A DNA stretch of 64,000 nucleotides, taken from positions 1,454,912 to 1,518,911 of the forward strand of contig NW_006767439.1 of assembly GCF_000264995.1 (NCBI RefSeq), in the 5' to 3' direction. Under the pieces are notes generated by a model. It worked only from the letters and a program-made list of their open reading frames with translations. It searched no databases and was not told where the DNA came from. This document shows, in pieces, positions 1 through 64,000 of the stretch. The position numbers and the translations under genes were made by a program. Source of the DNA: Punctularia strigosozonata HHB-11173 SS5 (Eukaryota > Basidiomycota > Agaricomycetes > Corticiales > Punctulariaceae). The stretch's first letter is position 1, and every line of letters begins with the position of its first letter.

Positions 1-172
1 CCGAGCGCCAACGCGTCGGGCTCGGCGTCGCATTCCGCCCCCGCGCCCGCCTACGACCAGCCGCGAGCCCGAGCCGCCGAAGGCAGCTCTCGATGCTGCT
101 ACCACTGCCGCTGCTGCTGCCGCCGCCGTTGTCGCCACCGGTCCTGCTGGCACGGATGACTCGGACCACTAA
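1..172 (+). CDS. 3' end of a gene cut by the window edge (unassigned)
   Basis: The first 160-170 bases are GC-rich and open in two plus-strand frames. One ends with TGA at 157-159, the other with TAA at 170-172. The first frame has the stronger bias for G or C at third codon positions at its start. The second ends in a plausible low-complexity Ala/Val/Asp tail. An intron between the two cannot be excluded. AT-richer sequence with imperfect repeats follows, as expected of a 3' untranslated region. No domain is visible, so no function is proposed. Confidence 0.3.
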   Translation, partial: RAPTRRARRRIPPPRPPTTSREPEPPKAALDAATTAAAAAAAVVATGPAGTDDSDH

Positions 173-267
173 GCCCCCCACCTCACCACCATCATCGCCG
201 TCGGGTCCGCTGGCACAGACGGTTCAGACGACTGATTGCACACACCCCCTACATTTCTCCTTCATAT

Positions 268-381
268 ACTCCTTCGCAAACACTCGCATTTTCCCTCTTC
301 GCATCGAAGTATACCCCGCATCGCTCACTCGTACACTCCTTCTGGCGCAAACACTCGCATTTCTCGTCTTCGCATCGAAGT
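268..381 (+). repeat. Two imperfect tandem copies of a ~45-bp unit
   Basis: A unit containing CAAACACTCGCATTT and ending CTTCGCATCGAAGT occurs at about 268-310 and again at about 335-381. The copies are roughly 67 bp apart with a few differences. They lie in the probable 3' untranslated region of the gene at the left edge. Confidence 0.6.
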
Positions 382-1792
382 TTACATTACAACTCTGGAT
401 CTAATGTTCACCCATACTTTCTGTACCGTGTCTGTCACGAAATATCATTGTTTATGCTCAGTTCGCGTCGCATGTGCTGCATCTGCTCACTTTGATGTTC
501 CGTGTGTGAGGTTGCCTTCTCAGCAGAATGTCATTTTGTTGGATGATTCGGCAAGCCCACTACGATCCTTCAGCCATCTCTGAATTGACGATGACCTGTT
601 GCTCCTCGCATAACAGATAGTCACCACGAGTGAGGGCATATTTACCACAGACATGATATAACGTGAATGCAGACATCGTTATTTGATTGAGGTACGTTAC
701 ATATCGTAAGGACCACAACAACGCTGCGTGAACATTGTTTGAGCGTACTCCGCAACAGCTCATCTCCATTCTCCATGTCACAACACATCGGATCTCGCAG
801 GAGGGCCGTCTCAAATGAGACTCGCATATCTTCGATTGTGTTGCCTGTTGGATCTCATCGCAGCGCCTCGTGACATCGACCAGGTGATAAGTTTGCATCG
901 TCGCGTTGATCTCGTCGTGAGCTCACCCTCGAACGGCGGTGTAGCCACAAAGTCATCGACTTGCGGCTAACTTGCGCCTAGCCACTGACTTGCCCAACAC
1001 TGCCCAAGTACATGAGAAAGGATTCCGTGCTTATGTAGTAAAACGAAGATTAAGAGTGGACAAGTCGGTTTGGGATACAGACGTCAGGACTATGGAGCAA
1101 CTATTGAGTGCAATCGCGGAACGAGCTTAAGGATGTCCTGTACTTAGGTACCTGGAACAGAAGAAGAAAAAGGGGCCGCCTTTATTCTGAGCGAGCGTGT
1201 GGCGCGCTACGCGCTCGGAGGCAAATGCCAAACATGGCAATTTCGGGGCGCAGCCCGCGGACTTCATGCTCTCTGCTTGTCTCCTCCTTGATCCCACTTG
1301 GAGGCCGACCTAACAAGATGGCTGCTTACACAAGCTGTATATGACGAGCTTTGCTCTCTTCCTTCGTACATCGATAGAACCAGCGTTCAGCGCTCAGTCC
1401 TCAGCGCGTCAAGCCTGAGGCCGATAACGTATCGGAACCTTCTTTGCGTCGGGGGGACGCGCGGACACCTCGAGTGGCTAGGGAGACCATGTTGTTGGTG
1501 GTGTCTGCGGATAAACCGGCTCGGCGATTTTGTCCTTTCCTCTTGCGCAGGTATGTCATGTAACGTTGTCTTCGCGGACGCGTCATGCTCATGCCCGATG
1601 GTTCAGCTTGCGTCGTCAGAGATCTCGCATTCACACGAACACAAACGCATTTCGCAGCCAAAACATGTCTCTCCTAGACCATCACCGAACACCGAAGACA
1701 AGATTGAGAAAACCGAACCATAGTCCCAAGCTCGAATCGAAATCCGTCCTGCCGGAGCGCTGCTCAACGACGCGCTTTCCTCCCCCGCCCCT
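382..1792. other. Intergenic stretch without a supported gene
   Basis: Open frames here are short, overlap on both strands and show no recognisable domain or consistent splice pattern. The right part is probably the 3' flank of the minus-strand RBR gene ending at 1,793. Confidence 0.5.
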
Positions 1793-3235
1793 TCACTCCG
1801 CCTCCAACGCCGCCCTCGTCACGCTCACGTCCACCGGCTCCTCGCACGGCCCATCGTGATACCCCCCTCCACACCTATAACAAAACTCGCCCCCGCACCA
1901 ACACATCATATGCACGCACCCCCCGCTCTTCTCCACGATCCTCCGACAGTGCGGGCACCGCTGCCACTCCCTCTCCCTCCCCAGCGCCAACAACGCCCGC
2001 TCGCCCTCGTCCCGCCCGCCCGAACACGCGACGTGCCACGCGTGCGGCGCGCCTCCGCACGCATCGCACGTCCTCGCCCCGCACCCTTCCCTCACGCACG
2101 GCACGGCGCGCGGCGGCTCGCCGGCGCTCTTCCGCCCGACGAACGCTCCGCACGCCGGCGCGGAGCAGTACACCCTCTCCCCCGCCGGCGTCCCAAACTC
2201 GCGCTTCCTGTCCTCGTACGCCCGCACCTCGTCCGGCGCGAGCAGCGCCCCGAACGCGTCGTACGGGATCGCGGCGGCCCCGGGGCGACGGTCGCAGCAG
2301 CGCGGCGGGAACAGCGACTCGTCCTCCGTCGCTTTCCTGACGAGCTCGCGCAGGCACGAGGGGTGGAACCGGTGGCCGCACGGCATCGCCGCCGGCGCCG
2401 GCGTTTGCTGGAGGTCGTCGAGGTCGTCGAGGCACAGGACGCACCGCGCCGCCCTCGCCTTCCCCCGCGACGAACTGGCGGCCGTGCCCTCCTCCTCTTC
2501 GAGCTCTAGATCGACGATGGCGATACCGACGACGATCGGACGGTTCGAGGGCGCGATGGCGCCGAGGCGGAGGCCCTGGAAGTCGACTTCTAGGTCGAGC
2601 GCCGGGCGATCCCTCGCTCCCAGGTCGAAGAACTTGATATCGCCCAGCGGTTCGAGATTCGGCGCTTTGCGCTGCTCCAGGGGTCCAGATTCGGTGGTCG
2701 TTACGGGCAGAGGTGCTGCACCAAGAACAAACAGAAAAGAACACTGTCAGCTTTTCCGTCACCTCAGCGACGCAACAACACCACACGCACCCGGAACATC
2801 TTCCACGCCATCCCTATCCTCCACCACCCCATCATCCTCGTCGTCGAAAGGCGCCACGTCCAACGCCCCCTCCTCTTCCACGGCAAACACGAGCGTATCC
2901 ATCGCCTGCTCGGCCGTGACCCCGTTCTGGACCCCGAGCACGTTCTCCACGAGGACGTCCCACGCGGCGTCCACCTCCGCCCTCCACACCGCCCCTCCTT
3001 CTCCCCCTCCTCCTCCTCCCGCCACGAGCATCTGCGCCCTGGCCGCGTCGACGACCTCCATGATATACTCCGGCGTCTGCTCGACGTCGTCGGAGAGGCT
3101 GCGCGCGAAGAGGTGGTCACGGAGCACGGCGAGCAGCCGCGTGGTCTCCGCCGCCCAGAGCGCGTGCGCGACGCGCGCGTCCGACGTTCTTCGTCGCTGC
3201 TGCTGCTGCTGCCTTCGCGTGGTAGAGGACGACAT
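1793..3235 (-). CDS. RBR-type E3 ubiquitin ligase with a lineage-specific N-terminal domain
   Basis: Two exons, complement(1793..2715, 2791..3235), joined by a 75-nt intron with donor GTGCGT, branch-like CTGAC and acceptor GCAG. The phase agrees and gives 455 residues. Residues ~18-115 form a helical-looking domain (HALWAAETTRLL... AEVDAAWDVL) shared with the genes at 3,941-7,046 and 8,028-9,748. From about residue 240 the RING1-IBR-RING2 tripartite module follows: CVLC and CGHRFHPSC for RING1, a Cys-rich IBR, then RING2 starting CPHC with the family's active-site Cys in GGCVHMMC. RBR ligases accept ubiquitin on that cysteine before passing it to a substrate. The substrate is unknown. A TATA-like motif lies ~80 nt upstream of the ATG. 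Confidence 0.85.
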
Positions 3236-3312
3236 TTCGCCTTGGGGACACCTGTCTTTTGTGGGTGCTGGCGGTGGGGGAACGCAGACGAGGGCGATCG
3301 AGGACGGGCGGG

Positions 3313-3322
3313 TATTATATGA
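3313..3322 (-). promoter_or_regulatory. TATA-like element of the RBR gene at 1,793-3,235
   Basis: The minus strand reads CATATAATAC about 80 nt before the ATG at 3,235. The genes starting at 7,046 and 11,800 have similar motifs at similar distance. Confidence 0.4.
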
Positions 3323-3940
3323 GGGAGGCGGAAGATGTCATGCCTCGTGTGTACCGCCCTGCGTAGGCTATATCCATGAGAACCTTGTGAGGTGGACTGC
3401 TCGCGCGCAAACGGCAGGGCGGGTGTATATCTCGTGGGGGGAGCTTCTGGTGCAACGTGGGCGGTAGTAGGTTGGAGGCGCGTCCTGAGCCTCGTGAAGG
3501 GGGTTCCATCGTTGAGTACAGTACCTATACCCTGTGCTATAACTCAATAGTGTTGTTTTATGGACAAAAATTCAACCACGGAATGCGTCGCTGTTCACTC
3601 ACTGGATCGCAGCTCGCGACGCGGGGTCGATGCTGGCGCCGTGCTGAATGACGCTGTTCGTTCGTGGGCTCGCACAACGTTTACGGACGAAGTCGTATAC
3701 AGGACATTCACCATCTTGGATTACATGACATGGACGTGTAGCAGCGAGGCAGGGAGCCGGGGGAAAAAAAATGTTGCAACATTGCAGTAGTGGTACAAGC
3801 TATCGGGTTCGAAGTAATGATTCGAGCGAGTACTGCGTGGACGGGAGGAGAATTTCTACAGGAATGAACCTGGCCAGATACATTGTACATCGTGAGACTT
3901 GTTTGAAGCGTGTTGGCTCGTCAAGAATGTTCAGGACCGT

Positions 3941-5830
3941 CTAATTGTTAACCGACATAATGCGCGTACCCGACTCCGTCGACTGAATCCATACGGCATC
4001 GCCTGCTAGTGCGGATCGTGGAGGTGTGAAGGATCGGATTACAGTATCCGGCGCATGGCGGCGCACTAGGTCGTTTTCGAACCGCGACAGGGCGTCAGCG
4101 ACGGTGTTCTCGTTCCCTGCAATCCACAGGACTCGCAACTCGATAGAGTTCTCCAAGAGGATATCCACTGCTGCCTTCATAGGTTCGACGAATGGACGTC
4201 TCGCCTTCATGGAGTTGAACAGCTTGACGGTCTGCTTGTTGTCGCAATAGATGAGGAGACGCAGTGGAGCCTGACCATGCGATTTCGCCCAATCCAAAGC
4301 CGACACAACCGCCAAAATCTCCCAATATAAGCTATCACTCACGCCGCTCGGAGCCTGGACAGGCAGCCGGCACTGGAAACCTTTTTTGAGGCGCGGGCAC
4401 CAGTATCCCAGGCCACTCAACGAAGCGTCCGAGTAGACGGTCAAGCCAGCATCTTCTGCAGGCCATTCCACCGCCTTAAAGAGCTTGATCGCTCGCGATC
4501 GCTCCATGTGGTCTGCGACCCAGATAAGATCGCGTAAGACCGCGTCGCTCAGCGATACCAGTTCGCGGGGATCGGTTTTGCCCTTCATTGACTGATGGAG
4601 GTGGGTCAAGCCCGGACGAAGGAGGGGGAAAACGTTGAATGCCCAGTTGACGGAACCGGCTAGCTGCTGGAGCTCGACGAGTGGATAGGATTGAGTCTGA
4701 GGAACCCGTTCAGCACCAGCAAGCTCCCGTATCTGCATCACAAGAATCTTGCGCTCGTCCTGACCCATGCCGATGCTCATCTTGTTCGCATCGACTTCGT
4801 ATCCTATAATTTTGAGTATAGGGCCATGGACCTGCTTGCGATCCTCGTGAGGAATGCCGAGCTCGTCCCAAAGCTCCAAGAGGCGCTTCTGATTCCTCGG
4901 CATGCGGCGGCCGTATGGCCGGTACAAACGCATGTTCTCTGATTCGTCATAGCTGAAGATGTCGTCAACGTATCCCAGGAGGTCCGGGATGCCGCGAACT
5001 TTGATTGCGATCCACAACACCAGGCTCATGAACGATACGAATATATCTCCGGCTTTTCGGTTCCCGAAGTGGTTGCATCGGTCGACATATCTTTGTCCTT
5101 CCACCGTGACGATTTGGCGGATCTGCCATAGAGGGTGCATAGGGAGGTTTCGATACGCGCTGGATACGTCCGACTTCCATAGAATCAGATGACGCTTCGG
5201 GTCCAGCCCTGCCGTATGACGGGCACGATGTAAAGCCCTGCCGAGATCCTGGATGTTGTCTACAGGGATTGTCGGTGGAGCACTCGGAATCATTCCGTTG
5301 AGCGAGTACTCCCCGAAAGAATCGTCGTTTATAAGACGGAATGAGGTCTCGCCCTTGGGAACGACACAGATGGGCATGCTATACATTCCTTCCTTGAGAT
5401 CCGTTCCAAACGACGGAGACCACCGCCTGCTCTGGACTTCTTTATCCCTGTACTCCGATACGAAAGCTGCGTGCTTGGGGTTACGAATGGGGCGGAGGGA
5501 GTTATCCCAAGTAGTGGGTAGCGCGGGGTCAGACGTGTCTGCTGATGGCCAGAAGCCCTCTCGCAATCCGCGAACGACAGATTGAACAAAGGCCCGATTT
5601 GGGTGGGTCCCTAGAAGCTCCTCGAAGCGGTCTACGTCGATAGGCGTAACGATTGGAAATAGACGACGGTTCGCCTTGATCGTTCGCCAGGCTGCAGCAT
5701 TTTTTCTCTCGTTTTCAGGCACGCCAGGCAGGGGAGCAGCGGACTCAGTGGCCAAGGCAGATGTAACCCTGGGTGTGTCGGGATCGTCGAATGTGCGTTT
5801 GTATTGAGGCTGCAGCGCCCATTTCCAGTC
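3941..5830 (-). mobile_element. DIRS-like reverse transcriptase-RNase H module
   Basis: A single open minus-strand frame holds a reverse transcriptase palm with YVDD and a following RNase H-like domain. The order and motif style match tyrosine-recombinase (DIRS) retroelements rather than LTR elements. The module looks whole, with no break seen. I found no tyrosine recombinase, gag-like frame or terminal repeats around it, so this is either a captured part or a reduced element. Its age cannot be judged without relatives. Confidence 0.65.
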
Positions 5831-7046
5831 GCCGCCAAGAGGCTTGTGTTCAAGGGACCCGTCCGCAAGACGTTTCTCCTGATGTTCAATTGGCGCAAGA
5901 GACTTCGATCTATTTATCGCGGGATCACTTCTATTTTACATGTCAGTCAACGATGTCCGCATATTGATGACAAGTCAAGCGAACCCTTGCTTCACACCCG
6001 CGCGCGATCGATTAGGGTCAGAAAGGGACTTGAATTTGTTTACGGCGGGTGAGTCGCCTCTGTTGAAAATAAAAATATCAGCTGACGATGTCCGTATCAT
6101 CCATGAACAGGTCGACCTATTGTGAGAACCCGTATATGAACGGCTCGTATTCGCATGCGCCTTCATCTTGGTCACTGCCGCCACATCGTTTCTGCTCCAC
6201 ACTCTGTTCAACAACATCCACTTCAACAGACGGCGAACGAACCTGTCTTGAGCTCTGGGGTAGGACCGGTTGGCGTTCACCAGAGTCTTTGGCCTATTCG
6301 CGGTGGATGGATCGTCACCTCTACTTGGCACACCACTCAGGAACGCTCCAATGATCGATGAAGAGGCATACCTTTTTCCTACACCCGAAGGTGATCCATG
6401 AGCGGCCCTCGTTGGAGATTTCGACGTATTCTCGATGGATAGATGACCTCTGCTTCGGTCAGCAACCAACAATGTCCGACAGTCTATTAGTGAACGTACC
6501 CTTTCTGAACCGTCGGAGGCGATCGCCAAATGGTTGTCGCTGGGGCCCTGGACGTATTCGCGGCGGCTAAATCACCTCTGCTTCACGAATAAGACAACGG
6601 TACCTCGTCATCAATCAACAAGCGTACTTTTTCCGGGCATGCGGGTACGCGCGGACGGCACCGATGAGCCTTTCGATCGCTTTATTGAGAGCTGCAATAT
6701 CCTCTGGGGAGAACTTTTCCGTCTTGACAAGGCCAGTGGTTATGACGCGCCACGCGGACTCCACGTTCGCTGGCACCGCAGCCTTGGGCCTTCCCGACGC
6801 GGTGTATGCGCCGGTCATCTTTGTCTTAGCGGTCTCCAGGGTTTGCATGATAGAGACAGGAGCGGACATGGGTATTCCGCTCTGGTCACGGCCACGAGCC
6901 TGCACATGGTCCTGCAGTATGCGCAAGAGCCGTATGAGCTCTTCGGCCCACACGGATCTCGCGCCATCATCGTCTAAAGGTTGAGGGGGACGAGCAGCGG
7001 GGGAAACGGGTTTCGCGTCGCCGATGCGAGATGTAGATGACCCCAT
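3941..7046 (-). CDS. Chimeric gene: RBR-associated N-terminal domain, duplicated-exon repeats, reverse transcriptase-RNase H
   Basis: Seven exons are predicted: complement(3941..5930, 5985..6059, 6117..6191, 6243..6320, 6372..6449, 6500..6577, 6628..7046). The six introns are 50-57 nt, GT-AG, and all fall in the same phase, so the coding length of 2,793 nt is open throughout (930 residues). Exon 1 encodes the N-terminal domain of the flanking RBR genes (RSVWAEELIRLL ... VESAWRVI) with no RBR after it. Exons 2-6 are homologous 25-26-residue repeats. Exon 7 starts with a sixth, weaker repeat and runs into a reverse transcriptase with a YVDDIF active-site motif and an RNase H-like region (YSDAS, YWEIL, YCDN, ADALSR). 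The type resembles DIRS-family elements. Splicing and fusion are inferred from sequence only. The alternative is two unrelated units that happen to be in phase. Confidence 0.65.
5858..6577 (-). repeat. Array of six duplicated exon-intron units of ~126-132 bp
   Basis: Each unit is a 75- or 78-nt exon plus a 50-57-nt intron. Exons are 6500-6577, 6372-6449, 6243-6320, 6117-6191 and 5985-6059, with a sixth unit fused to the start of the exon beginning at 5930. Most exons open with A(G)GTGAN after CAG. The encoded units share a pattern G-D-x-x-x-x-N-x-x-K followed by N-R-S or similar. Introns also align between units, so whole exon-plus-intron units were duplicated. The repeat does not match a motif I know. 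Confidence 0.75.
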
Positions 7047-8027
7047 CGTCCCGGTGGTCCCGGTGCTGTCGCCCGATCTGAGGTTGAAGGGCGAGTTGCC
7101 TCATCCTAACATCGACGGGTAGATATATATGAAAGATGAGCGGCCCGCGTTATCTGCATGGTGTAGGTGCTGTTAAGAGCGGTCGGTGTGTTTTATGAGC
7201 AAGCTGTACAAGAAGCTCACCGAGATCCCAATAAAGTACTGCTGCATGCACCCCATTACGCGCATTACGAACGAGAAGTCTTATATTACATTGCTGACAT
7301 CTACTGCGCCATTCGGGAGCCAGTTTTACCCTGCCTAGGTTCGCCATTGAGTGCATGTTTATCATGGGGTGGGCAAGATGTAGCACTGACGGGGACGTGC
7401 TGCGCGGATCGAGGCCCGCACTCTTCGCGTTGACTGCCACTGTATAGCACGTCTATATCGATGATGATCGTAGACGCACGACTTGATCTGTTGGCGGTTC
7501 GCAGAGATAGCGTCACAGAAAGCTAACATCCTAGCATATACTATCGTGTCGCGGTGTAGCATTCATATGCATCGTGTGCACAGAGGCGGTCTATGAATGA
7601 AGCGGGAGGACAAACAGAAGGGGCTGCCATCGTTTCGGGCGGCACGAGCCGAGTTCGGCCGGCCGGCGGAGGTTCCGTACTTGCGCTGGCGCAAATGAGC
7701 GGCATCCGGGGACCTTGCGCTATCCTCCTGTGCAACAGCTATACAAGCCATGAATCTTTGAGGGCATCCGCTTTCTATGTTGTCGAGGCCTGCCCAGAGT
7801 AAGCCAGGTTATGCTTATCGTTTCATTCGCGCAGCACCTCAACGCCGAACTATCCTATCTCGTGAGCAATACAAACAGCTATCCTACAGATCGGAGCTTG
7901 GACGTCAAGCTGACACAGAGCTTAGACGCCTCCGACACGAAGATCACATTCCATAGCTACCGAAGAATGAAGCATGTCAATCTCTGTCGAATACTCGTAC
8001 ACGCCAACGAAATCTCTCACCCACCAA
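7047..8027. other. Intergenic stretch; TATA-like motif near 7,121-7,133
   Basis: The minus strand carries TTCATATATATCT at 7,121-7,133, about 78 nt before the ATG at 7,046. It is a plausible TATA element of the chimeric gene. The rest of the 980 bp shows no supported gene. Confidence 0.45.
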
Positions 8028-9748
8028 CTACGCCGCGATCGCCTCCATAGTCGCGCTCGGAGCCACAGGGCTCACACAGGGTCCATCATGGTACTCTTGT
8101 CCGCAGCGGTAGCAGAACTCTTGAGAGCACAAGCACACCATATGGACGCACCCTCCGTTCTTCTCTACGATTCGCTTGCACCGCGGGCAGCGCTGCCACT
8201 CTGCTCGTTTTCCCATCTCCAACAACGCGCGCTCGTCAGCGTCGTACCGCGAGGAGCACGCGATGTGCCACGAGTGCGGTGCTCCTCCACAGAGGTCGCA
8301 GGTTAAGGTAGCGCATCGCGGGCATGCGACGGCGTTCGGTTGCTTTGCGGTACCCTTCGCCCCGAGGAATGTGCTACAAGTGCGGGAAGAGCAGTACAAT
8401 CTGTCCGGCGTCATGTACTCGCGGAGCTTTAGATCGTACGTATCCGCCTCTTGACGCGTAAGAAATGCACCAAATACGTCGTAGGGAATAGCCTTTGCAC
8501 AGCAGCGGGGAGGGAAGAGGGACTCGTTCTTCATCGCGTTGCGAACGAACTCGATGGCACATGACGCGTGGAAGACGTGGCCGCAGGACGTCAAGGGTAC
8601 CAGCATCCGGCTCATTTCGGATGACTCTCCAATCCCTTCAAGGCATATGACGCACGTAGGGTCGTTACTGATAGTCGAGGTGAAAGGACGTCTGTGCAAA
8701 CGGGGAGCGACCAGCAAGGCCGAGACGTCGTCATCAGGGCTTGCCTCGTAGGATCCATCTTCCCTGTGTGACGTATGATGTTAACATACAAGAATATCTG
8801 CAGGATCACTTACTCCAAATTGGACCCTTCGTCATGAGGAATATATGGGATTATCGCCGGAGATGGGCTATCAAGTATATCCTCGGCCCAGCGACGATCC
8901 GAATAGCCTTCTGGATTGTAGTCATCCGCTTGCCGGATGCTTGCACCAACATCGTTCCGTTCGCTCGCCTGGATTTCACCAGACGAGGCATTGACAACTT
9001 GGGGTGCAATTCCCATTAACCTCAAAGTCGCCTCCAGTCGTGTGGCCACTGCGCGATCTTCAGTGATATGAAAAGGCAATCGATACAAGGACGACGACGA
9101 TGTATCAGCGTCAGGTTGGACTTCTTAGGGCCCAATTGTGAATATTACACACACTGTTCTGATTCGTCATCGCCATTCGATGAGTCGGTATCCACAGATG
9201 TGAAGTCCCTAGGAGTTTGTGAGTGCCTATCCTATCTACCCAGACGATGCTTACTGAGGGTTGATCTCCGCGGGTTCGTCTTCGTCATCCGACTCCACAG
9301 CATAAAGCACATCAACGTGAGGCACCTCGTGCGCAGAAACTGGGCCTGCTTCTGCCTCGATCGCGACAGCTAGCCTGTTTATTGCTTCATCAGGGGTCGT
9401 CGTACTCCTCGATTCCGAGCTGCGAATCATCCCGAGCAGGTGTTCCGTGAGGACGGTCCATGCCGCATCGACCTCAGCGGGCATCACGGTTCCGCGGCTC
9501 CCCGACGCGGTGTACACGGCGAGCATCTGGACCTTGGCCGTCTCGAGGATCTCCATGATGTGCACGGGAGTCTGCGCAGACGGGTTGCGCCCGTCGAGGC
9601 TCCGGGCATACAGATGGTCCCTGAGCACGTTCAAGAGCTGCATGGTCTCTGCGGCCCATAGAGATCTTGCAACGTGCTCGTCGGAGGAGGTATCGCTCGC
9701 GCGTACCCCCTCCGTCGTGTCGGATGTGGTGTGGTTTGTGCTGTTCAT
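8028..9748 (-). CDS. RBR-type E3 ubiquitin ligase, paralog of the gene at 1,793
   Basis: The ATG at 9748 begins an exon (9255..9748, donor CA|GTAAGC) carrying the shared N-terminal domain (RSLWAAETMQLL ... AEVDAAWTVL). The last exon (8028..8763) carries RING1 (CVICLEG ... CGHVFHASC), a Cys-rich IBR and RING2 with GGCVHMVC, the usual active-site cysteine context. A middle exon ends at 8814 with a perfect GTAAGT donor. The intron 8764..8813 joins it in frame to the RBR exon. Between about 9,050 and 9,208 I could not settle the splice sites: a possible short exon starts at 9208, and the next acceptor is ambiguous. The gene could be intact with a small extra exon, or disrupted there. Confidence 0.75.
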
Positions 9749-9860
9749 ATTGTTGTGCTCGACCGACGTTGATAACGATATCACTCTCGCTGGCGTACAA
9801 GGAGGACAAGGAGAGCGGGCATGCTATGATCGCGGGGGGATACACCACTTTGAGCGTTAT

Positions 9861-10098
9861 GCCTCATGTCCGCGGCCTGTTCAAGCTGTAGATGCTATAC
9901 GAAGCAGAATTACTTCTTGATACTAAGCGTATGAGACACGGGATAAGAACGGTGATCGATAGGCGGCATACAACTTCGTATCTCATGCATCATGCCTCAT
10001 GTTACTGTTCACTGCCTGTGCGAGCTGTAGATGCTATACAAAACAAAGTTACTTCTCCGTATATGGGGCATGAAGAAACATGGCAAGAACGATCCCGC
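9861..10098. repeat. Two diverged direct repeats of ~100-135 bp
   Basis: Two similar segments start with GCCTCATG at about 9,861 and 9,994 and share GCTGTAGATGCTATAC at 9,885 and 10,024, followed by ATTACTTCT-like and AAGAACG-like matches. They lie between the start of the RBR gene at 9,748 and the end of the one at 10,216, so the repeat may fall in the former's promoter. Confidence 0.6.
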
Positions 10099-10215
10099 TG
10101 TAGCACGCCTCGCGCGTGTCCCCAAGATTCTACGGACAAAAACTATATCGCACGTGTCAAGAATAGATACATGCTGTCGGGCTCTAGACCATCGAACTGG
10201 TCGAGGCGCCTTTGC

Positions 10216-11800
10216 TCAAAGACGATTGCGCCTGCATCGATTGCAGGCCATCATACCGCACCCCGTTCCACATCGCTGGAGAAGTGGGCGATGATGAGCA
10301 TCTGCTGCGGATCCACGTGCAGAAGATGCTCACGAAGAGGTATTGTGGAAGCCAGAACCCGCATTCTTCGCATTGGCCTCCGCCCGAACGATATCCCCAT
10401 CTTCCATGCTGATGTTCGTGGTTGACGCGCAGGTCCTCCACGGCGGCTTGCACCCTCTCCAGCATAACAGCTTGCGGCACCGCCTCGCGCCTGGGATCGA
10501 TCCCAGCCTCGACCTGGCGTCGGGCGGCGACGACGAGACGGTTTTCATCCCACTGCGGGCATTGGCACGTCTTCCACGTCTTCGCACACACGTAGCAGAA
10601 CTGCGCGCGGCAGCGGCACGTCATGTGGAAGCAGCCATGTGCGAGTTCGACCATCTGGTGACATTGTGGACAACGCTGCCAGCCTTCTTCCCTGGCGAGG
10701 TCGAGCACGACCTGGGCCTCGGTGTCGGTGGCGCAGGGTTGGAAGAAAGGGTGCGCGGCGGTGTTGCACGCGCCGCAGGTCCGGGTGTAGCATTCGGGGC
10801 AGTAGAGAGGTGTTGGGGTCGAGGTAGCAGCACCGACGAAGGCGCCGCAAGAGCGTGAACTGCAGTAAATTTTCTTTCCGACCGTGTTGTACTCGCGCTC
10901 CTTCTTCTCGAAGAGGAGGGCCAGCTGGGACGAAAGATGGGGCCTGATGAGCGAGAAAGGGATGGGCTGCGTGCAGCAGCGGATTGGAAACAGGGATTGG
11001 TCTCGCGTAGCGGCTTCGACCAGGTCGGTGATGCATTCTACATCGTATGGGTGCCCGCACGGGCCTGCGATGGAGGGACCTGTAATCTTGTCGCGGCAGG
11101 ATGTGCATTCTTTCGCGGGTTTCGGTCTGGACAGATGTTGAGCATCAGGACTCTGCTATGGGCAGGAGCGAGAGAACGTACTTGCTTGAAGGCGCCGCTG
11201 TGTAGGTGCTACCATGCGGAGCTTTAGGAGTGGCGCGGCCAGAGTTTGTGACCAGGGTGGATAAACTATGAGATAACGAGGTTAGATACCCAGTCAGATA
11301 TACGCCTGGGATACTTGCATCGATGTGGCAGTTGTAGAAGCTGGAGTAGACGACGCGGCGGGCTTCGACGTTGACGGGCGCGCGGCAGATGCGCTGCTCG
11401 CAGCTGGCCGAACGGGGATGCCTTGTGAGAGGGCGAGGGCGACGCGGCGATCGTCCCTCGCCTGATTCTCCTCAGCCTGGCAGGCCTGGACCAGAGCATG
11501 ATCCGTCGCAAGGGCGGAATCGATGCTCTGAGCCAGGACACGATCCTCGACGGCCCGACTCATGGCGCGGACCTCTTCCTCGTACAGGCGGAGGGCAAGG
11601 TCGGCGTCGCTCGGAGGCGCGCCGTCCTTACCCTTCCCCTTGCGGTGATCTTCGAGCTCGCGTAGGTCCTCGAGCGCAAGCTCGGCGATAAGGCGATACA
11701 ATTGAACGTCATCGTCATCATCTGGATTTGGATGGTAGGGGGTAATCGACGCCGAGTTTATCACGTTGGGGACACGGGATGGACCTGCAAGCGCTGCCAT
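10216..11800 (-). CDS. RBR-type E3 ubiquitin ligase, second subtype
   Basis: Three exons, complement(10216..10275, 10334..11152, 11315..11800), all in phase, give 454 residues. The N-terminus is helical and charged (DDDDDVQLYRLIAELALEDL), unlike that of the other two RBR genes here. The second exon holds RING1 (CTSCRDK ... CGHPYDVEC), the IBR (CSSRSCGAF ... CYTRTCGAC) and RING2 from CPQC with the active-site Cys in HGCFHMTC. The 58-nt final intron joins a further zinc-binding tail that ends ACNRCRRNRL, as I recall from fungal members of this family. The first intron (162 nt, donor GTATCC) is the least certain junction. A TATA-like CACATATAAT lies ~65 nt upstream of the ATG. Confidence 0.85.
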
Positions 11801-11860
11801 CTCGTATACCCTGTGGTAGGGTGATGCACGGGAGCCGGGGGGGCTGAGCGAGCTGGAAGG

Positions 11861-11873
11861 CGCATTATATGTG
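11861..11873 (-). promoter_or_regulatory. TATA-like element of the RBR gene at 10,216-11,800
   Basis: The minus strand reads CACATATAATGCG about 65 nt before the ATG at 11,800. The motif resembles those before the ATGs at 3,235 and 7,046. Confidence 0.4.
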
Positions 11874-13887
11874 AAGATCGCGTGAGATAAGGATCGGTCC
11901 CACGCACAGTCAGTCCATATTCAGACGCCATCACAGAGGTTTGGCTGCCATCGAGGCTTGAGCGCCAGTCGATTTCCCTTGTGCTCTAGTAGCGCGTCGC
12001 GAATGGTATTCGCCAGCCATGTATAACAGATGCCTTCTGGAAACCCTATGATCTGCGATTACGAAACATCGATCGTCAACGTATGCACGGCGATCGCATA
12101 TCCAATCGTTACACGGGCAGTACACGCCTGCAGACATTGCAACGATGTCCTGAGCATTGTGTATCCAGAGCGATCATACAACCTGAAAGAATGAGCGCGC
12201 CATCATCGCTCACCTCTTTGACCGCTCACGTGATGCAAGAGCTTCGAAGTGGGAGGTCCGGCGGTGGATTACGAGCGTAACAAGAACGGCCCGTAGGGAT
12301 CGCTGGATCGCTTATAGAGGCGGCAACTTTGATGTTATACTACCGCAAGTCGTTACTGGTTCAAGACACAGTCCATAAACCCTGCAGATGAACCTTGATC
12401 AAGATCGGGTAAAACCGTGATCAACGACGAGAGGTGATACCAATTCCTTCATCCCACCACCGCCACCTGAATCATCCATATCATTGCCCTTGCCGTTTTC
12501 AAGGCAATTCTTGGAGTATTGGTGTCTGTGGCACTCGTTGAAGCCGTTAATCCGAGAATCCCTGGTCGAGGGTCGATATTTCTCGAGATAGCATGATGTC
12601 CCTGTGACAGGTGTCGTGGGCCTTGGATGGAGTGACGCGGGAGGGCGGTCTTCCCCGAAACTGGGCGACGTGTACTCACCAGACCAGTTCGTATGCTCAA
12701 CGACCCAGTGACCGAACTCGCGTATCCCTGCCGCTCAGCCAACGCCGGCAAACCGATGTAACTGTTTGATGAGTATGATCTGCCTCGGACTTCCATTTCT
12801 CCAAGCTACATGCATTATGTCAGGTTGAAGACATCCAGGATACAGCGCCGAAATCTCCTCGTGGACGGCGGATCAGTCTTGTGGTGTCTTCCTCATCCGC
12901 GGCCTCTTCCTATCACGACCGTGATCGTGGTCTTGTTGAGGAATCGTTCGAAGAGCCCTGAAACAAGTTGCCTGTTTTGTGCGTTAACTACAATCTAAGC
13001 ATCGATGGTGAACGCCCGTACCTTCGTTGACTTCCAAGAGGGTCTGCATGTAGGTGGTGCGGAAGGGCGATGGCGGTGACCTGCGGGAAATCTCTACGCG
13101 CAGCAATCACGCCGGATTCTTCTCCATGTCGAGCGGCGAGCCTGAACTTGAAGATTGAGGAGCTGTCAATATGAATTCCTGCGAATGCCAGGACGTATGT
13201 GAGCACGCCGCGGACGCTCGCATGCCACTTGGAACTTCCGATCATCCACAACAAATGCGCGTGCGAAGCGTGGATCAAATACTATATCGTTTAGCGAATA
13301 CATCGTCCACAGATGCCATAGAGCAAGCGCAAAGACGTCGACAAAGCGGTCGCAAACTTCCACGAAACTTCTTCAACGCCGGCAACTGCCGGCGTGTAGC
13401 GCCACCATCGGGTCTTCGCCCCGACAGAGACTCTCCTGACGAACGTGCCCTCGAGTCGTGATAAAAACCCTACAGAAAGACACGTATTACGCCCTATAAA
13501 GTATGACTGACCCGTAAGGCCTCCGTAGCATAGAAGTAGAGTAGAACGAACATTGTACTCTAGCTTTCTCCTGCGCACTCAACGAGACTTACCCCGGTCT
13601 ATTGTGTCAACTTAAAGGAACTCTAACCGTGTGACTACACTTCGCTTACAAAGCTTACCCGTCGTCACACGGGGAGCCCCTTGAACCTGTCCTGCCTTGT
13701 CTCGCTCGCTGGCTTCCTTGAACGGCTGATATGTATGATCCCGAGTATGCGCGAATCACTACACGTGGCTCATGTGTGTCGGCCAAGGAAAATTATACAA
13801 TCGAGGGCATCCTTCCGCGGACTCTGTATGCATCATCTGTAACAAGTATTATCATTATATCGTTGGCCTCATCGAGGATCGCAAAGT
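11874..13887. other. Intergenic region without a supported gene
   Basis: Short open frames occur on both strands but none has a convincing domain. On the minus strand around 13,160-13,480, fragments such as DVFALAL faintly resemble the C-lobe of a protein kinase. Frames change without good splice sites, so at most this is a decayed scrap. Confidence 0.4.
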
Positions 13888-22427: not shown

Positions 22428-22499
22428 CGTTACGAGGAGACTCTGCACAAGCAAGCACGAAAGCCAGCGAACGAGGCGAAAGGTGATGAAGGGACGGAC

Positions 22500-22788
22500 T
22501 GTTACGTGCCGGTCCTGCCGGGAGCCGAGACCGAGAACTCTTTTCCTTTTCTAGCATTCGGCGCTGATGCGCCTTTTGACTGTTTGATCCTTTGCTCCAC
22601 TTCCATATGCTCAAAGGCTCGCGGCGAGGTATAAAAGACAAGCAGCCTCGTCGCGAGGACCTTTACCTTTTGGTTTCATATCTTACCTCGAGTTGCTCAA
22701 TCGAGACTTGAACTCTCTATTGTTGTGCCGCTCGAGAACCTTATCGTGTGAACGCACCTTAGCCGTATTCGGCTTTGCCCGCGTCACA
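22500..22788 (+). repeat. 5' LTR
   Basis: 289 bp, starting TGTTACGTGCC and ending GCGTCACA, with a TATAAA-like box near 22,632. It matches the 3' LTR over its full length. Confidence 0.95.
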
Positions 22789-22955
22789 TATTTTTGAGAG
22801 TGTTTCGTGAGTAATCTGTTATCGCTCGTCGTCGCTAATCCCTCTTCGATAGGACACTACCCGGCTTGATCACCCGGGTACACCTTGGCTGAGGACACAG
22901 TGACTGCGAGCACCGCAAGCTACGTGTTCTAATCCCTTATCCCTATACGCTGAGT

Positions 22956-25900
22956 ATGCCTGTGTCTAGGGACGAGCTCACGGGTCGCTGGACTCGTAAT
23001 GACCGTAGGGTCGGCGGACTAGACAGAGTCCCCCGACCCGAGTCGGATATCAACATCAACGAGGGCGGGGCGGCTGCCTCTGACCCCGTTGACTCATCTC
23101 CGTTGGCGGGCGAGGCTGGAGCTATGCACCACGGAGATGCCCCGATGGCCGGCGATCATGCAGGATCGAGCCTCGGGGCCGACATACCTCAAGGTCTGCT
23201 ACCCGCTTACCTTGACGTTCCCTCGCATCGCGGAGGATCGCGGTTGGCGAGCACGACGGGACTGGTGCTCAAGGACGAGCCGCGCAGTCCGTCCCCGTTT
23301 GTCATTGGAGGTTTCGGTGGGACATCCAGTGACGGCACTGGATCGTGGTCCAAGGTACCTCGCAGACGCCGGAGCGCGTCACCCGTGCTATCCAAGCGTA
23401 GTGTGATAAGCAATGATAATAGTTTTGCTTCATTGACTGATCTACATGACACCTCTCTTGTCGACCAAGATGCCGACGACGAAGTGGTAGGATCTCCGTT
23501 AGAACTAGAAGAGCCTCGCACCCCGAAGAAGCCGAAGAGTAAGCGGCTGGCGTCTGAGGGCAGAGCAATGAGTGATGGAGAGCTTGACGCGTTGCTAGAG
23601 ACGCCTACCCCGGCGGACAAGGGAAAGCGTGTCGATCGGGAAAGGGTTAAGAACGCTCGGGTCGAGGACCCAGTTTCCTTCGGTGTCGCCGCAGATAACA
23701 ATGCCGTGGGGTCGGGTTTTGTTGGCATTGTCGATGAGGATCTCGATGTCGATGCTCAGAAAGCGGCGCTGGATTCTTTACGACCTATCACGGCTGTTGA
23801 CGCTGTAGCTGGCAGCAATGTGTCGTCACACTCGTCTCAAGAGCCTCTGGAAGACTTGTTTGAGCGCACTAGGAAATCCGCCGAAGTCTTTAAGGACGGG
23901 TGTGAGCGAGAGGTCCGCGAAGCGGAACGGGAACGTGATGCCGCGCACCTCGCATTGAGAAAAGCCGAACTTGCTAGGATCGAATCCGAACGAGCGCGCA
24001 TCGCAGCTGAAAGGCGGTTGGTTGAAGTGCTGAATAAGATCGATAGCCTGGCCTCCACGGTAGACGCTCAGGCGGCTGAAGTTGCCGCACTTAAGCGCGG
24101 TCGAGTCCTAGACATCGACCGTCAGGGCGAGATTGAACCGAGACGTGGCTCACCGCCGCACCTTGTAAGGGCACGAGGAACCGAGGATCTCCTGGTTGGC
24201 GAGCAGACTGGCATCCACAGTCTGAGTACAGCCAGACCCGGTATGTTGATCGGTAACCCGTCGGCGACCATGTCGAGGAAAGGAACTCGAACGTCGGTAG
24301 CACCTCCATCCCGGTTCATATCGCCTGCTAGTTCCCTAGGCCAGACTTTGAGTAGGAAGCTTCAGCAACTAGAAGACGCTATGCTTACTATTGAGCGTGC
24401 GGGGTCTTCGGTGATCAAACCGAACATAAAGCCCGAGCCTCCGAAGGCTTACGATGGTCGGGGCGACCTCGATGCGTTTCAGAGATATGTCGAACAGAGT
24501 GTGGAATACCTTATCGACGGGATGATAATGAGAGAACGACATGTGTCCAAGATTGGGCACTTCCTTGAGAAAGACGCCCAACAGTTTTTCAACCGGGTGG
24601 TGAAAAGGCCGGAGCTATGGACGGCGGAACGATTCTTCGACGAATTGTTCAATTACTGCTTCCCCGACGGTTTCATGAATGCCATCCGGGCGCGCTGGAG
24701 CACCTGGATGCAGAAGGGATCGTCAGTAAAGGTATACGCGGCAACTATGGAAGGATTCCGCGACGATCTCGGCGGGGAAATCTCTGATCGCCAGTTCGTT
24801 CACCGGTTCTGGCAAGGCCTGAACGACGAAATCAGTCAGGAATTGTATCGTGACAGACTTCACCCAGATATCGATGCGTACGACGATGTACTCGAGAGTG
24901 CGTTGATTGCTGAACGAGTAATCAACAACAATTTACATCGTGGTAATGCCGCTGTTGGCTCCCCCCGATCCGGGTTTGAGCGGACGGGAACTGGCAAGGG
25001 TCGACGAGGTGGCAGTAGCGGTGGCCAGTTCGGGCGAAATGATAATAATGGCCATTCGTCCGGGGCGCCGGCGGCGAAGTCGAATGGACAATTCAGGGAG
25101 ACCGGCTCTGGTGCGCTGCGAAATAGTGATCGTCCGAAGCGAAGGGAACGTAACCCTAAATCGGACTCACCGTTGTCTGAGGCGCAAATGAAAGAGCATC
25201 TGGAAAATAACCTGTGCTTCAAATGCCACAAGGCAGGGCATATGAGTCGAAACTGCCCCAATGGGCAGCAGGTTACGAGTAGCACGCGTGATAAAGCCCC
25301 TGGGTCGAAGACCAGCTATGCTGTTCGGTACGCCGACAGTGACGGGTCGGCCGATGGCGCCGCCCTGTCTAACGACGGTGACGACCCTGAGGTGCTAGAT
25401 GAGCTGCCTTGTGGGTCAGTGCGGTTCCGGTTAGTCGGAGACGACCATGGAGAAGGTGATGGAGCCGACACAGCGTTTATACAGGACGACGGGTTGGACC
25501 CGTTCGGGAACCCACCACCTTACGAAGAGCCGCAGACGGAGGTCTACGATGCGCATACGTGGTACCGGCGATATCAACGCCGGTGGTATCGTTGGACCAT
25601 TGACTACCTAGAAACGCGAGGCATAACGCACCGCGTGCGTCAAACTTGTGAGGCATATGAGAGGCATGGGTCCGATGGTACCTTTGTGTGTCCGGATGCC
25701 GTACGAGCGCACAGGCTGGAACGAGACGCTTTCATCGAGGGATCCTCGCGGTTTGGCGATCCTATTGCTAACCGTATGGGGATGGTTGTTGAAGCGCAGA
25801 TCGACCGGCTTCCGCATCTTTGGGAAACCTGGACACAAGAGTTCGCTATCGACTCCTACATGGTGCTATCCGAGGACGGGTACACGCCTTGGATAATGAA

Positions 25901-28900
25901 TGAGCCATACCTTAACACGTCGCTTGAGGTCCCTCAGGAACTACTGATGCGGCGAAGTTTTGACTTCGTCGGTTGGTACCGAACCCGCATGCTTGAGTTC
26001 GTTGACATCGCCCGGCGGTTTGAGCACGACGAACTCGGGATGGAAGACGTCGACTTCCTTCAGGAGTGGAATTGGGGCGAGCCTTTATGGGCCGCCGAGG
26101 AGACGCAGGTGCCGTCGGCCCTCGAGGACTCTGACAACAGTGAGGAATCCGAGTCTGAGATGGGAGGATACCCACCTGGGGCACGGTTCAATATCCCTTC
26201 GTCCGACGAGGATGAGGGATCCACGGAAGGCGTCTCGGAGGGCGAGGTCTTCCTCGTTGACGGTGTACTATACACGATTGGCGCCGACGAAACGGTATGG
26301 TTCCGTGCAGCTAGCGTCGGGCTTGCTGTTTTGGGAACTGATGCTGAGCCCGAGCGGACGCCCCGCGTGCATATGGCGAAGGTGAGGCAGCCGCCAGAGG
26401 GAAGCTTCGCCTCATTGCAGAGAACTGCGGCTCGGGTGAAGACCGCAGGGCGGAAGATACCTCGACCTATCGTGCTCACGGTTAAGATAAACGGACGTGA
26501 GTGTCGAGCCTTACTCGATTCGGGGTCGCTTGGCGACTTCATGTCGAGCGCTCTTGCGGAGCAGCTGAAGGTCGAGAAGGTACCTGTGGATACACAGCTG
26601 ACTGTGCAGCTGGCCGCTCAGGGGTCGAAGACCAAGGTAAATTATTACACTGAGGTAGACCTGAGCTATGCACGCATCGCGTGCAAACGTACGTTTGACA
26701 TCATGAATATCGACGGATATGACTTGATACTGGGGACGCCGTTCATTTGGCAGCACAAAATCATGGTTGGACTGAACCCGTCGAGGGTAATTGTCGGCTG
26801 TGAGACGCCTGAAGGCCTGCGTGCCGGTGACGATGTCAGTGTCCTAGCGTCCAGAGCTACAAGGGTCAAAGAGCGGTCCCTGGAAGATATTCGGAGGGAA
26901 CTGCATCAGTATGCGTCCCCTCTGTACCAGAAAGCGGCGGAGACGACTCTACCTCCGTTGCGCCGAGTTAACCATCGAATTCCTATCATTGATAAGGAAA
27001 AACGATATCCGTTTCGTGCTTCGCGTTGTCCAGAGGGGTTCCGGGAGCAGTGGAATGCTAAGCGCGATATCTTCCTGAATTCTGGACGGTGGGAGTACGC
27101 AAGCGGGACGAACGCTGCGCCTATCATGTTTTTGAGTAAACCGTCGGGAGGTATGAGGAACACGGTTGACTTACGCGCGCGGAACGACAATACTCGCAAG
27201 ATGTCGTCGCCGTTGCCTGACCAAGACGCCATTCGACGGCGGGTGGCGGCCAGTCGCTACTTTACGGCGATGGATTTGGAGGGCGCATACGAGCAAGTGC
27301 GTGTGGAACCTGAAGATGTGCCGTACACCCTGATGGCCACCCCGGACGGGACAATGGTTAGTCACGTCCTCCAGCAGGGGGACTGCAACGCGATTGCGAC
27401 ATTCATGGCGGTAATGACTGACCTATTCTCGCCCTACATCGGTGCTTGGCTTGAGATCTACCTTGATGATTTGATCGTACACACCGATGACCTTGACGAC
27501 CATGTACGGTGTGTTAAGCTCGTCATCGACATCTTACGGGAAAACGAGTTCTACTTATCCGAAAAGAAGATGCACTTCTTAGCGGATGAGATCAAGCTAT
27601 TAGGACAGATCGTTTCGCACCGTGGAATCCGGCTCGACCCTGCCAAGGTTGAGCGCATTCGAACATGGAATGTCCCCACTAATCGCGATCTTTTGCGAGG
27701 ATTCCTGGGTGCAGTTGGGTACCTTGCGGACGGCTGTGCTGGGATCCGTGTGCCGATGGATGTGTTGAACCGGTTGACAGGCGACAACGTGGTCTACCGG
27801 TGGGGGCCTACAGAACAGCGAGCGTTTGATGAAATTCGGGAGATCGTGCACGCTCACCGAAATGTGCACCGTATGGCTATGAGGTATGGCCCCGATGCCC
27901 CCCCTGTCCATGTAGTAACTGACGGATGTCTTACCGGCGTAGGTGGATGCATCCTGCAGGGCACTGACTGGCAGTCGGCGGGGGTCATCGCGTTCTATTC
28001 TGCTAAGCTGTCTCCTGCGCAACAAAATTACGCAGTGCATGAGATCGAATTGTTAGCCGGCTTAGAAACTATGCTACGTTACCGTGATCTGCTGCTCGGG
28101 GTGCGCTTTACCTGGTACACGGATCATAAGGGTCTGATCCACTTCATGAATCAGCGCAACTTGACGGGACGACAGGCGCGTTGGTTAGAGAAGTTATCTG
28201 AATTTCACTTCGAGATCGTTTACGTGCCTGGTCTTGATAATAAGTTAGCGGACGCCTTGTCACGGATCTACGCGGCTGACGAACCTGGTCTGGTACGAGC
28301 TGCGAGTGAAATGGTTCAGTTCGACGACAACCATCCGCCCGCCGAAGGCGCCGGGATGGCAATCCTCACTGGACTTGAGGCTCGTTTGGCGACACTGCGA
28401 CCGCGTGCGGACCGCGTGCCGGCGGGCAACGCGATCCATGATCGACAAGCTTCTCCCAAGGTACCGCGGGTACAAGCGTCGGAGCCGGTCCGGAGGGCGC
28501 GTGTGGCTGATACCTTGCCGGCGGAGACGGGGCGAGCTGAGACGGCGGCAGAGTTCGCCAAGCGCATCAAGAAGGTGACGTTGAAGCTGCCGGCACAACG
28601 TCAGGAGGGCGGGAGCCTAGAGCCTATCACGAGGTTATCAGAATCAGTCGCTGATACTGACGTACCGCATGCCGAGTACCCGGCCCCGAAGCTACTCGAT
28701 GTATTGCTAGAGTACGATAATGGGTGTCGATTTCCAGAATGTATACGAGGGAAATACCTGGCGGATCCCTTCTTCAGGCTAATACTTGAGGCGCCGGACC
28801 AGTTCAAGAATTTTACGTATGAGAACGACGTCCTATACCTCAAGGATGGGGGAATTAAATTGCTGTGCATACCTGATTGCTTGATCGGGGAACGCAAGGC

Positions 28901-31208: not shown

Positions 31209-31270
31209 CCGTGGGATTGAGGCGGAGGTTACCTTATTGGGCGAAGCGGTTTCCACTTCGGGAGGGCGGA

Positions 31271-31559
31271 TGTTACGTGCCGGTCCTGCCGGGAGCCGAG
31301 ACCGAGAACTCTTTTCCTTTTCTAGCATTCGGCGCTGATGCGCCTTTTGACTGTTTGATCCTTTGCTCCACTTCCATATGCTCAAAGGCTCGCGGCGAGG
31401 TATAAAAGACAAGCAGCCTCGTCGCGAGGACCTTTACCTTTTGGTTTCATATCTTACCTCGAGTTGCTCAATCGAGACTTGAACTCTCTATTGTTGTGCC
31501 GCTCGAGAACCTTATCGTGTGAACGCACCTTAGCCGTATTCGGCTTTGCCCGCGTCACA
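31271..31559 (+). repeat. 3' LTR
   Basis: 289 bp with the same ends as the 5' LTR, followed by the target duplication CGGAC. Confidence 0.95.
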
Positions 31560-62400: not shown

Positions 62401-64000
62401 CTCGTCACTGGGCTGCTCATCTTCGCAACGCGGTGTTGTCGCCCTCGCTGATGGTATTGATCGATCGATTTCTGCGGGAGAAGGCTCTTTTTTGGCTGGA
62501 GGCATTGAGCGTTCTCGGTTCTATTTCGCTTGCGGTGCCGGCGCTTTCGACCTTGTTCTGCATTCTCCCAACTGTGAGTATACGTTCATTCTACTACGCC
62601 ACCAACTGAGGTCACTTTCCAGGAATGGCGTGTGGAAAACGATCGCGGCCGGTTGATCGAGGACCTGCAATGCTTCACACGTTGTTTCGCCCATGCAATA
62701 TCGAATTCAGCGCCCCATATCTACATATCCGCGCTTCCGTTCTCGCCGACAAGCTCTGTCCTTGCTTCTCTCTACCAGCAGCTCTTCCGGAGAACATTTC
62801 GCATATCGCGGGGACGGGACCGAGACTGGTTGGCGGTGCAATCGATCTTAAAAGGACACTTGAAGGGCGTCACATCTATTGCTTTTACGAAGGACGGCAA
62901 GCACCTTGTATCCGGATCTGTCGACACCACTATACGTCTATGGGATGCGGATACCGGTGAGGCCATTGGAAAACCATTCACGGGCCACACGAAGGAGGTC
63001 ACGTCTCTCGCCTTCTCACCCGATGGAAGATTCGTTGTATCAGGGTCGGAGGATCGGACGCTGCGAATATGGGATCCCGCAAATGGTCAGGAGTTTATTA
63101 AACCATGGAGGTGGTCCCGCGGCACCCCGACTATCTGTCCGGATGGCACGCACGTCTTCTGGTACTCTCCCGGCCTCCCTGGCAAAATTAGCTTGTGGAA
63201 CCTCGCGGCCGGACCTGTTGGAAATCCTTTGATAGAGGATCTCCAACGTAGGCCAGCCGTCGCCGTCAGTCCTTCCGGTAAACGGGTCGTCCTGGAAACT
63301 TGGAATGCGCTCAAGCTGCTGTGGATCCCTGACACAGGATGTACCGTCGAGCAAGCGTTTCAGGGGGATCTCAGCGAATTGATCGATGACCCTCATCAAG
63401 TCGTGGTGGGTAGATTCAGGTGCATTACCTTCTCGCCGGACGAAACGCAGATCGCCACAGGATTTTTCAATGGGATGGTTCAGCTGTGGGACGCAGAGAC
63501 AGGGCGACCTCATGGTAGACCTCTCAAACATGGCGTCATGAGACTGCTTAGCACCATTGCATTCTCTCCCGACGGAGCGTATCTCGTCACTGGATGCTTA
63601 GATGGAATGATTCAATTATGGGATTTGGCGTCCAGAACGGCCATCGGTGCTCCACTTTATGGGCACGGTGATTGGATCACTGCCCTCGTATTCTCCCCCG
63701 ATGGCAACCGCATTGCGTCTGCCTCTCACGACCGGACTGTGCGACTGTGGGATGCCGAGGCCGTTCGTCGAGCACCGTCTGGAAGCTTAGACACCCACGT
63801 CACCTCCTCGATATCCATTTCTCCTGACGGGACACGCATAGTCTCAGGATCCTTGGATGGTAGAGTGCGATTGTGGGATGCGAGAAGCGGACAGGCTTTT
63901 GCTGAACCATTTCATGCTCATAGTGACAGCGTCACATCTGTCGCTTATTCCAGGGACGGAAGGCAAGTAGTCGCAGGGTATTTCGATGGGACAATGCGAG
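59435..64000 (+). CDS. Second NLR-like receptor (C2-like, helical, NACHT, WD40), cut by the window edge
   Basis: Exons 59435..59537, 59593..59716, 59771..59901, 59954..60055, 60110..60128, 60177..60375, 60433..60483, 60538..60733, 60788..60943, 60994..62573 and 62623..>64000. Exon lengths 3 to 10 equal those of the gene at 51,508 exactly (131, 102, 19, 199, 51, 196, 156, 1,580). Exons 1 and 2 differ by 3 nt each. The frame is open to the edge. The P-loop is GIAGAGKS and Walker B is LVVIDALDEC. WD40 repeats begin with GHLKGVTSIAF near 62,850, and about nine are visible before the edge. The WD40 part has diverged more than the NACHT part, including a degenerate repeat around 63,090-63,220. Confidence 0.88.

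Follow-up and report, generated by a model that had tools for sequence, protein, structure and literature searches.

In basidiomycetes, YR retrotransposons have been placed in Ngaro, and no DIRS elements are reported there in the consulted portions of two studies (PMC3783388; PMC3266345). According to the same portions, gag precedes pol in YR elements, and the YR retrotransposons found in fungi are mostly incomplete (the latter in PMC3783388). Some YR elements may carry introns; the word is absent from the main text of PMC3266345. The locus described here lies on the minus strand of the window, the 64-kb stretch of DNA from Punctularia strigosozonata that was analysed. By eye, this DNA has the character of a basidiomycete nuclear genome, with its short introns, a cluster of RBR genes, a Ty3-like element and NACHT-WD40-like genes. 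As far as the Ngaro elements of the Agaricomycotina are described in the consulted part of PMC3783388, the locus is like them in that the reverse transcriptase (RT) is directly followed by RNase H, in that a protease and a DDE integrase are lacking among the Pfam matches of the RT exon, in its basidiomycete host and in that incomplete copies are common. It differs from them, however, in that no tyrosine recombinase, gag or A-pol-B-A-B repeats were detected at the locus and in that the RT sits behind a host exon.

Fusion genes of transposons and their hosts are known, for instance transposases that were captured by splicing. Here, too, a host exon is spliced to an element enzyme, as predicted from the sequence; however, what has been joined is an RT-RNase H, at a point within an amplified array of mini-exons, and a role for the host is putative. 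The rvt genes are cellular genes that, like this locus, have an RT in the setting of a gene but no parts for mobility. They form an ancient and separate lineage; the RT of this locus weakly matches retroviral-type thumb and RNase H profiles. To our knowledge, host reverse transcriptase genes are rare beyond telomerase and rvt. With the neighbouring genes of its own cluster, which encode an N-terminal domain (N-domain) and an RBR ligase, the locus shares the domain encoded by exon 1, but the RBR domain is absent from it. Among the literature matches listed, as represented by titles and beginnings of abstracts, none describes a fungal fusion of an RT with a host domain, whether of the RBR family or another. 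Our preferred reading, which we hold to be about evenly balanced between right and wrong, is that of a chimeric gene: the polymerase of a retroelement, itself truncated, would replace the RBR part of a host paralog.

The gene model and the RBR ligase cluster

The gene model spans positions 7,046-3,941 of the minus strand and consists of seven exons and six introns, with a coding sequence of 2,793 nt (930 codons and a stop). All six introns, which are 50, 50, 51, 51, 57 and 54 nt long, have GT-AG borders and lie in phase 2; a model of six GT-AG introns in one phase with 930 codons and a stop had been proposed in an earlier note on this DNA and is exact. Exon 1 (7046-6628, 419 nt, 139 codons and 2 nt) encodes the host N-terminal domain, as identified by tblastn and by alignment to the paralogs in RBR genes. 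It is followed by intron 1 (6578-6627), mini-exon 2 (6577-6500, 78 nt), intron 2 (6450-6499), mini-exon 3 (6449-6372, 78 nt), intron 3 (6321-6371), mini-exon 4 (6320-6243, 78 nt), intron 4 (6192-6242), mini-exon 5 (6191-6117, 75 nt), intron 5 (6060-6116), mini-exon 6 (6059-5985, 75 nt), intron 6 (5931-5984) and the RT-RNase H exon, which comprises 1,990 nt including the stop (5930-3941). Read-through of intron 1 meets a stop and read-through of introns 2 and 6 meets stops, and these three must be spliced. Introns 3, 4 and 5 are stop-free multiples of three, and the frame therefore forces the removal of introns 1, 2 and 6 only; retention of introns 3 and 4 is possible. The proposal that the introns lead without a stop into the RT thus stands for the spliced frame, with the correction that this frame needs only introns 1, 2 and 6 to be removed. 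The array described below suggests that introns 3-5 are spliced, which the frame does not demand. Since these three introns are multiples of three without stops, the stretch 5975-6571 on the minus strand, from exon 3 to exon 6, forms a single open frame even when it is unspliced. The donors of introns 4, 5 and 6 (GTTCGT, GTCGAC and GTTCGC) look weak when compared with the donor consensus.

As a control for chance, the 697 nt that separate exon 1 from the RT exon were subjected to dinucleotide shuffling, with introns of 45 to 60 nt and exons of at least 20 nt. An open GT-AG chain from exon 1 to the RT exon occurred in 45 of 300 shuffles. In 3 of 300, such a chain could be built from phase-2 introns only, and in 2 of 300 from exactly six of them. 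For the actual sequence, 5,366 chains are possible, 336 of which are in phase 2 throughout, so that the boundaries are not fixed by frame and GT-AG alone. By itself, the open chain is modest evidence for the gene model, and the array is the stronger support. Coding scores reach 0.123 bits per codon for exon 1, -0.013 for the joined mini-exons and 0.143 for the RT, each being best in the spliced frame among all six frames. When mini-exons are scored singly, the spliced frame is the best of three in only 3 of 5 cases, and the best frame of intron 4 (0.264) scores above any mini-exon.

The domain encoded by exon 1 had been described as the one that precedes an RBR ligase elsewhere in the cluster, and this was borne out by two paralogs on the minus strand, one in RBR gene 2 (9748-9254, RBR exon following at 8780-8031) and one in RBR gene 1 (3235-2762, RBR exon following at 2746-1796). 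In tblastn searches, exon 1 matched 9682-9353 with 41% identity (E 1e-20) and 3169-2924 with 32% identity (E 6e-7); in the alignment, it is 39% identical to the N-terminus of RBR gene 2 and 30% to that of RBR gene 1. In the middle gene of this tandem cluster of N-domain and RBR genes, the N-domain is present and the RBR (RING-IBR) exon is absent, and a tblastn search with three RBR proteins at E up to 1 found no RBR remnant between 2,747 and 8,030. A structure model of exon 1 built from three sequences has four helices at low confidence (pLDDT 57), and a PDB search with this model yielded 108 matches with E <= 10, of which not one had E <= 0.001. The Nei-Gojobori estimates of dN and dS are 0.64 and 1.22 for the fusion and gene 2, 0.88 and 1.58 for the fusion and gene 1, and 0.50 and 1.61 for genes 2 and 1. 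Exon 1 of the fusion is the most diverged of the three copies, with the longest nonsynonymous distances, and its frame is still open. Neutral drift of a frame of this type, by substitutions only, left it open in 218 of 5000 runs at 0.6 substitutions per site and in 75 of 5000 at 1.0, which makes long neglect unlikely.

The cluster contains a third RBR gene at 10187-11155 and 11294-11920 of the minus strand; its upstream ORF is unlike the exon 1 domain, and the only similarity in tblastn is weak and lies at 11731-11624 (E 0.022). A pair of direct repeats of 51 nt, which are 82% identical, lies upstream of RBR gene 2 (9867-9917 and 10006-10056).

The mini-exon array and the joint to the polymerase

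Judged by their resemblance to one another, exons 2-6 and their introns are a diverged tandem array, whose units each consist of an intron and the exon behind it and whose sixth unit is formed by intron 6 and the first 37-51 nt of the RT exon. The unit starts are spaced by 128, 128, 129, 126 and 132 nt, and pairwise identity between the units amounts to 44-57%. Local alignments of the complete units beat all 300 shuffles for 8 of 15 pairs; for exons alone this holds for 4 of 15 and for introns alone for 1 of 15, namely introns 5 and 6 (0 of 300 shuffles as good). Leave-one-out nucleotide profiles searched against the window recovered five of the six units, with E-values from 2.1e-14 to 1e-7: unit 1 with mini-exon 2 (2.1e-14), unit 2 with mini-exon 3 (1.1e-8), unit 3 with mini-exon 4 (8.1e-8), unit 5 with mini-exon 6 (1e-7) and unit 6, for which see below; unit 4 with mini-exon 5 was missed (E 0.24). 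A profile of all six units found no further unit in the 64-kb window (next best E 2.1), and none beyond the RT. Among the 121 gapless columns of the unit alignment, 15 are invariant; the GT and AG columns are among these (hypergeometric 1.6e-4), a result that is in part circular, as GT-AG served to choose the boundaries.

At the protein level, the array is less conspicuous. When each mini-exon peptide was left out and searched for, E-values of 0.003, 0.01, 0.29, 7.4 and 12 were obtained for exons 2, 4, 6, 3 and 5, respectively, and exon 7 was not among the nine matches listed. Differences between the aligned mini-exon starts are 0.41, 0.39 and 0.54 at the three codon positions, and taken together with the poor peptide scores, this indicates that constraint on the linker as a protein looks weak. 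The linker encoded by these tandem intron-exon units is basic (pI 11.0, with 24 K/R against 10 D/E in 146 residues) and probably disordered. An origin of the array from the 3' end of exon 1 is not claimed: local alignment gave no support (115 of 500 shuffles as good), and the unit profiles miss this end. The sum of global alignments to it beat all 500 shuffles and was reached by none of 1,780 windows taken from four other stretches, by 2 of 265 windows of exon 1 and by 2 of 611 windows of the RT.

The sixth unit is the one that bears on the order of events. A profile of the other five units matches 5963-5894 (envelope 5983-5880) with an E-value of 4.6e-9 and thereby reaches 37-51 nt into the RT exon. 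When the first 36 nt of this exon are compared with the mini-exon starts, they score above all 1000 sampled RT windows; nucleotides 37-72, compared with the mini-exon ends, show no resemblance, since 378 of 1000 RT windows score as high. The stretch 5880-5930 thus appears to hold the beginning of the sixth array exon and then the putative host/RT junction. This unit extends across intron 6 into the RT exon, and the RT was therefore most likely joined into a pre-existing array, near 5,880-5,894. Array first and RT second would be the simplest order, with the RT presumably joined inside a mini-exon and whatever came next lost. An array grown from the RT exon's own start is disfavoured by the dissimilarity of nucleotides 37-72 to the mini-exon ends. 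A GT at nucleotide 72 of the RT exon, followed by CAG 49 nt further on, would shift the frame if used as an intron and is regarded as chance. The earlier note had left open whether the host domain was captured by a retroelement or had captured it; the array evidence favours the latter direction, in which the RT joined into a host gene. Because the array exons share one phase, any in-phase joint keeps the frame, and joining inside an amplified intron-exon array suggests itself as a route to chimeras. Since the RT apparently entered an existing array, the divergence and age of the array give no date for the RT.

The polymerase and its probable retroelement class

The RT-RNase H is encoded by one stop-to-stop frame of 664 codons without frame breaks, in agreement with its earlier description as intact. 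It contains DVSSAY and YVDD, which we take to be RT motifs, and SDAS, EILAV, CDNKQ and ADALSR, presumably RNase H motifs, and the frame ends 46 residues past ADALSR, the last of them. In Pfam, the exon matches RVT_3 (E 4.2e-4), RVT_thumb (E 1.3e-3) and RVT_1 (E 0.14), all below the curated cut-offs. An RNase H family of PHROGs matches at E 1.7e-4, the NCBIfam ribonuclease HI model only at E 0.021 (14.7 bits, cut-off 140), and a phmmer search of PDB sequences retrieved HIV-2 RT (E 0.031). A single-sequence structure model of the RT was too poor for use (pLDDT 35). No relatives were found in viral, prokaryotic, plasmid and phage sequence collections, a result that has no bearing on copy number in the fungus, and none of the peptide-pattern matches in genome contigs (8 and 47 stretches) and viral contigs (7 stretches) was confirmed by tblastn. 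The RT exon lacks an in-frame ATG in its first 181 codons, its first methionine being residue 450 of 930, and a full-length RT therefore needs an upstream start. In-frame methionines upstream are residues 1, 60, 67 and 77 in exon 1 and residue 227 in mini-exon 5, the latter being the only one between exon 1 and residue 450. A shorter product starting at Met 450 would keep both RT motifs.

Further parts of an element were searched for in and around the exon. Pfam scans found no tyrosine recombinase in the RT exon or in the flank ORFs, a search that smaller decayed pieces could escape. The scan of the flanks covered all 33 ORFs of at least 35 amino acids (longest 102) in 3236-3940 and 7047-8030, 29 of which have no Pfam match; each of the other 4 has a single match that is weak (E 0.031 to 0.27, below the cut-offs) and unrelated. 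An adenine methyltransferase behind RNase H, a trait of DIRS, is absent from the Pfam results for the RT exon and flank ORFs, and neither a protease nor a DDE integrase is among the Pfam matches of the RT exon. Terminal repeats of the A-pol-B-A-B type were not found: blastn with word size 7 between 7047-8030 and 3236-3940 gave a single match of 18 nt (E 0.024), and neither flank matches inside 3941-7046. Inverted terminal repeats were not seen either, since none of the 18 inverted pairs in 1-12500 has its arms in 3236-3940 and 5931-8030; the blastn comparison of the flanks covered both strands. The weak profile matches point to an RT of retroviral/LTR-like class. Ngaro appears more likely than DIRS as its source, a tentative assignment that draws on general knowledge of these elements and on their published distribution.

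Readings of the locus

If the locus is a chimeric gene, the middle paralog of a tandem N-domain and RBR cluster would have kept its N-terminal helical domain without an RBR exon, and this domain would now lead, through a basic linker made from tandemly duplicated intron-exon units, into a retrotransposon RT-RNase H. The source of the latter would most likely be a YR-type pol truncated at its 5' and 3' ends and joined inside one mini-exon. Full-length RT would be made from an upstream start, most simply one in exon 1 if introns 1, 2 and 6, at a minimum, are spliced out. Splicing, translation and enzyme activity of the fusion are predictions; if the protein is made, it would be a host gene product that joins a ligase-family domain to a reverse transcriptase.

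Quite possible, though short of probable, is a young truncated retroelement fragment in a decaying RBR paralog, whose continuous frame arose by chance and from which no fusion protein is made or relevant. The RT frame remained open in 994 of 2000 runs of neutral substitution drift at 1%, in 69 of 2000 at 5%, in 4 of 2000 at 10% and in none of 2000 at 20%, which leaves two options, an arrival of the RT no more than a few percent of neutral divergence ago or selection that preserved its frame. As the frame often survives at 1%, a young insertion needs no selection, and its intactness is compatible with recent arrival as well as with selection. The array provides no date that would contradict a recent arrival, exon 1 of the fusion changes fastest among the three copies, and fungal YR retrotransposons are mostly incomplete in the consulted part of PMC3783388. 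However, the RT frame continues that of the mini-exons, lacks its own start over 181 codons and ends 46 residues past the last of its RNase H motifs, and further parts of an element were not detected alongside; these points speak against such a fragment. If no protein is made, the locus would be a clean example of a gene caller turning a retroelement fragment into a false host gene.

Within the chimeric-gene reading, it is tempting to speculate that the RT-RNase H was taken over by the basidiomycete as a cellular enzyme, which we consider unlikely. In such a domesticated enzyme, the duplicated RBR-family N-domain would replace gag and tether the polymerase to the partners of that domain, and the basic linker of amplified intron-exon units would join the two. 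The host would then hold a spliced, single-locus reverse transcriptase that is unable to move itself.

Less plausible still is a gene that belongs in its entirety to a mobile element: a retroelement would have acquired the host N-domain as a gag-like part, and all of it would move together. With a pI of 11.0, the linker is basic, as a nucleic-acid-binding part of gag might be, gag precedes pol in YR elements as described in the consulted portions of PMC3783388 and PMC3266345, and uptake of host genes by retrotransposons is reported in the consulted part of PMC5890265. Nevertheless, exon 1 has two paralogs in the same tandem cluster, both located ahead of RBR exons, and neither terminal repeats nor a recombinase were detected at the locus. 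Furthermore, retrotransposition through spliced RNA would remove spliceosomal introns. That the RT exon was misjoined during assembly is highly improbable: in the contig as assembled, the sixth unit of the array crosses from intron 6 into the RT exon, which leaves only about 5,880-5,894, within an open frame, as the place of a false join.

Elsewhere in the window, a Ty3/gypsy-like element occupies 22492-31559 of the plus strand and contains one stop-to-stop frame of 2,771 codons (22893-31208). It is flanked by direct repeats (22492-22788 and about 31264-31559), whose 99.3% identity over 297 aligned columns indicates that the element is probably young. Two tandem NACHT-WD40-like genes with an NLR-type architecture, recognized by eye from their ORFs, are located at 52629-57162 and 60804-63999 of the plus strand, the second of which runs off the window.
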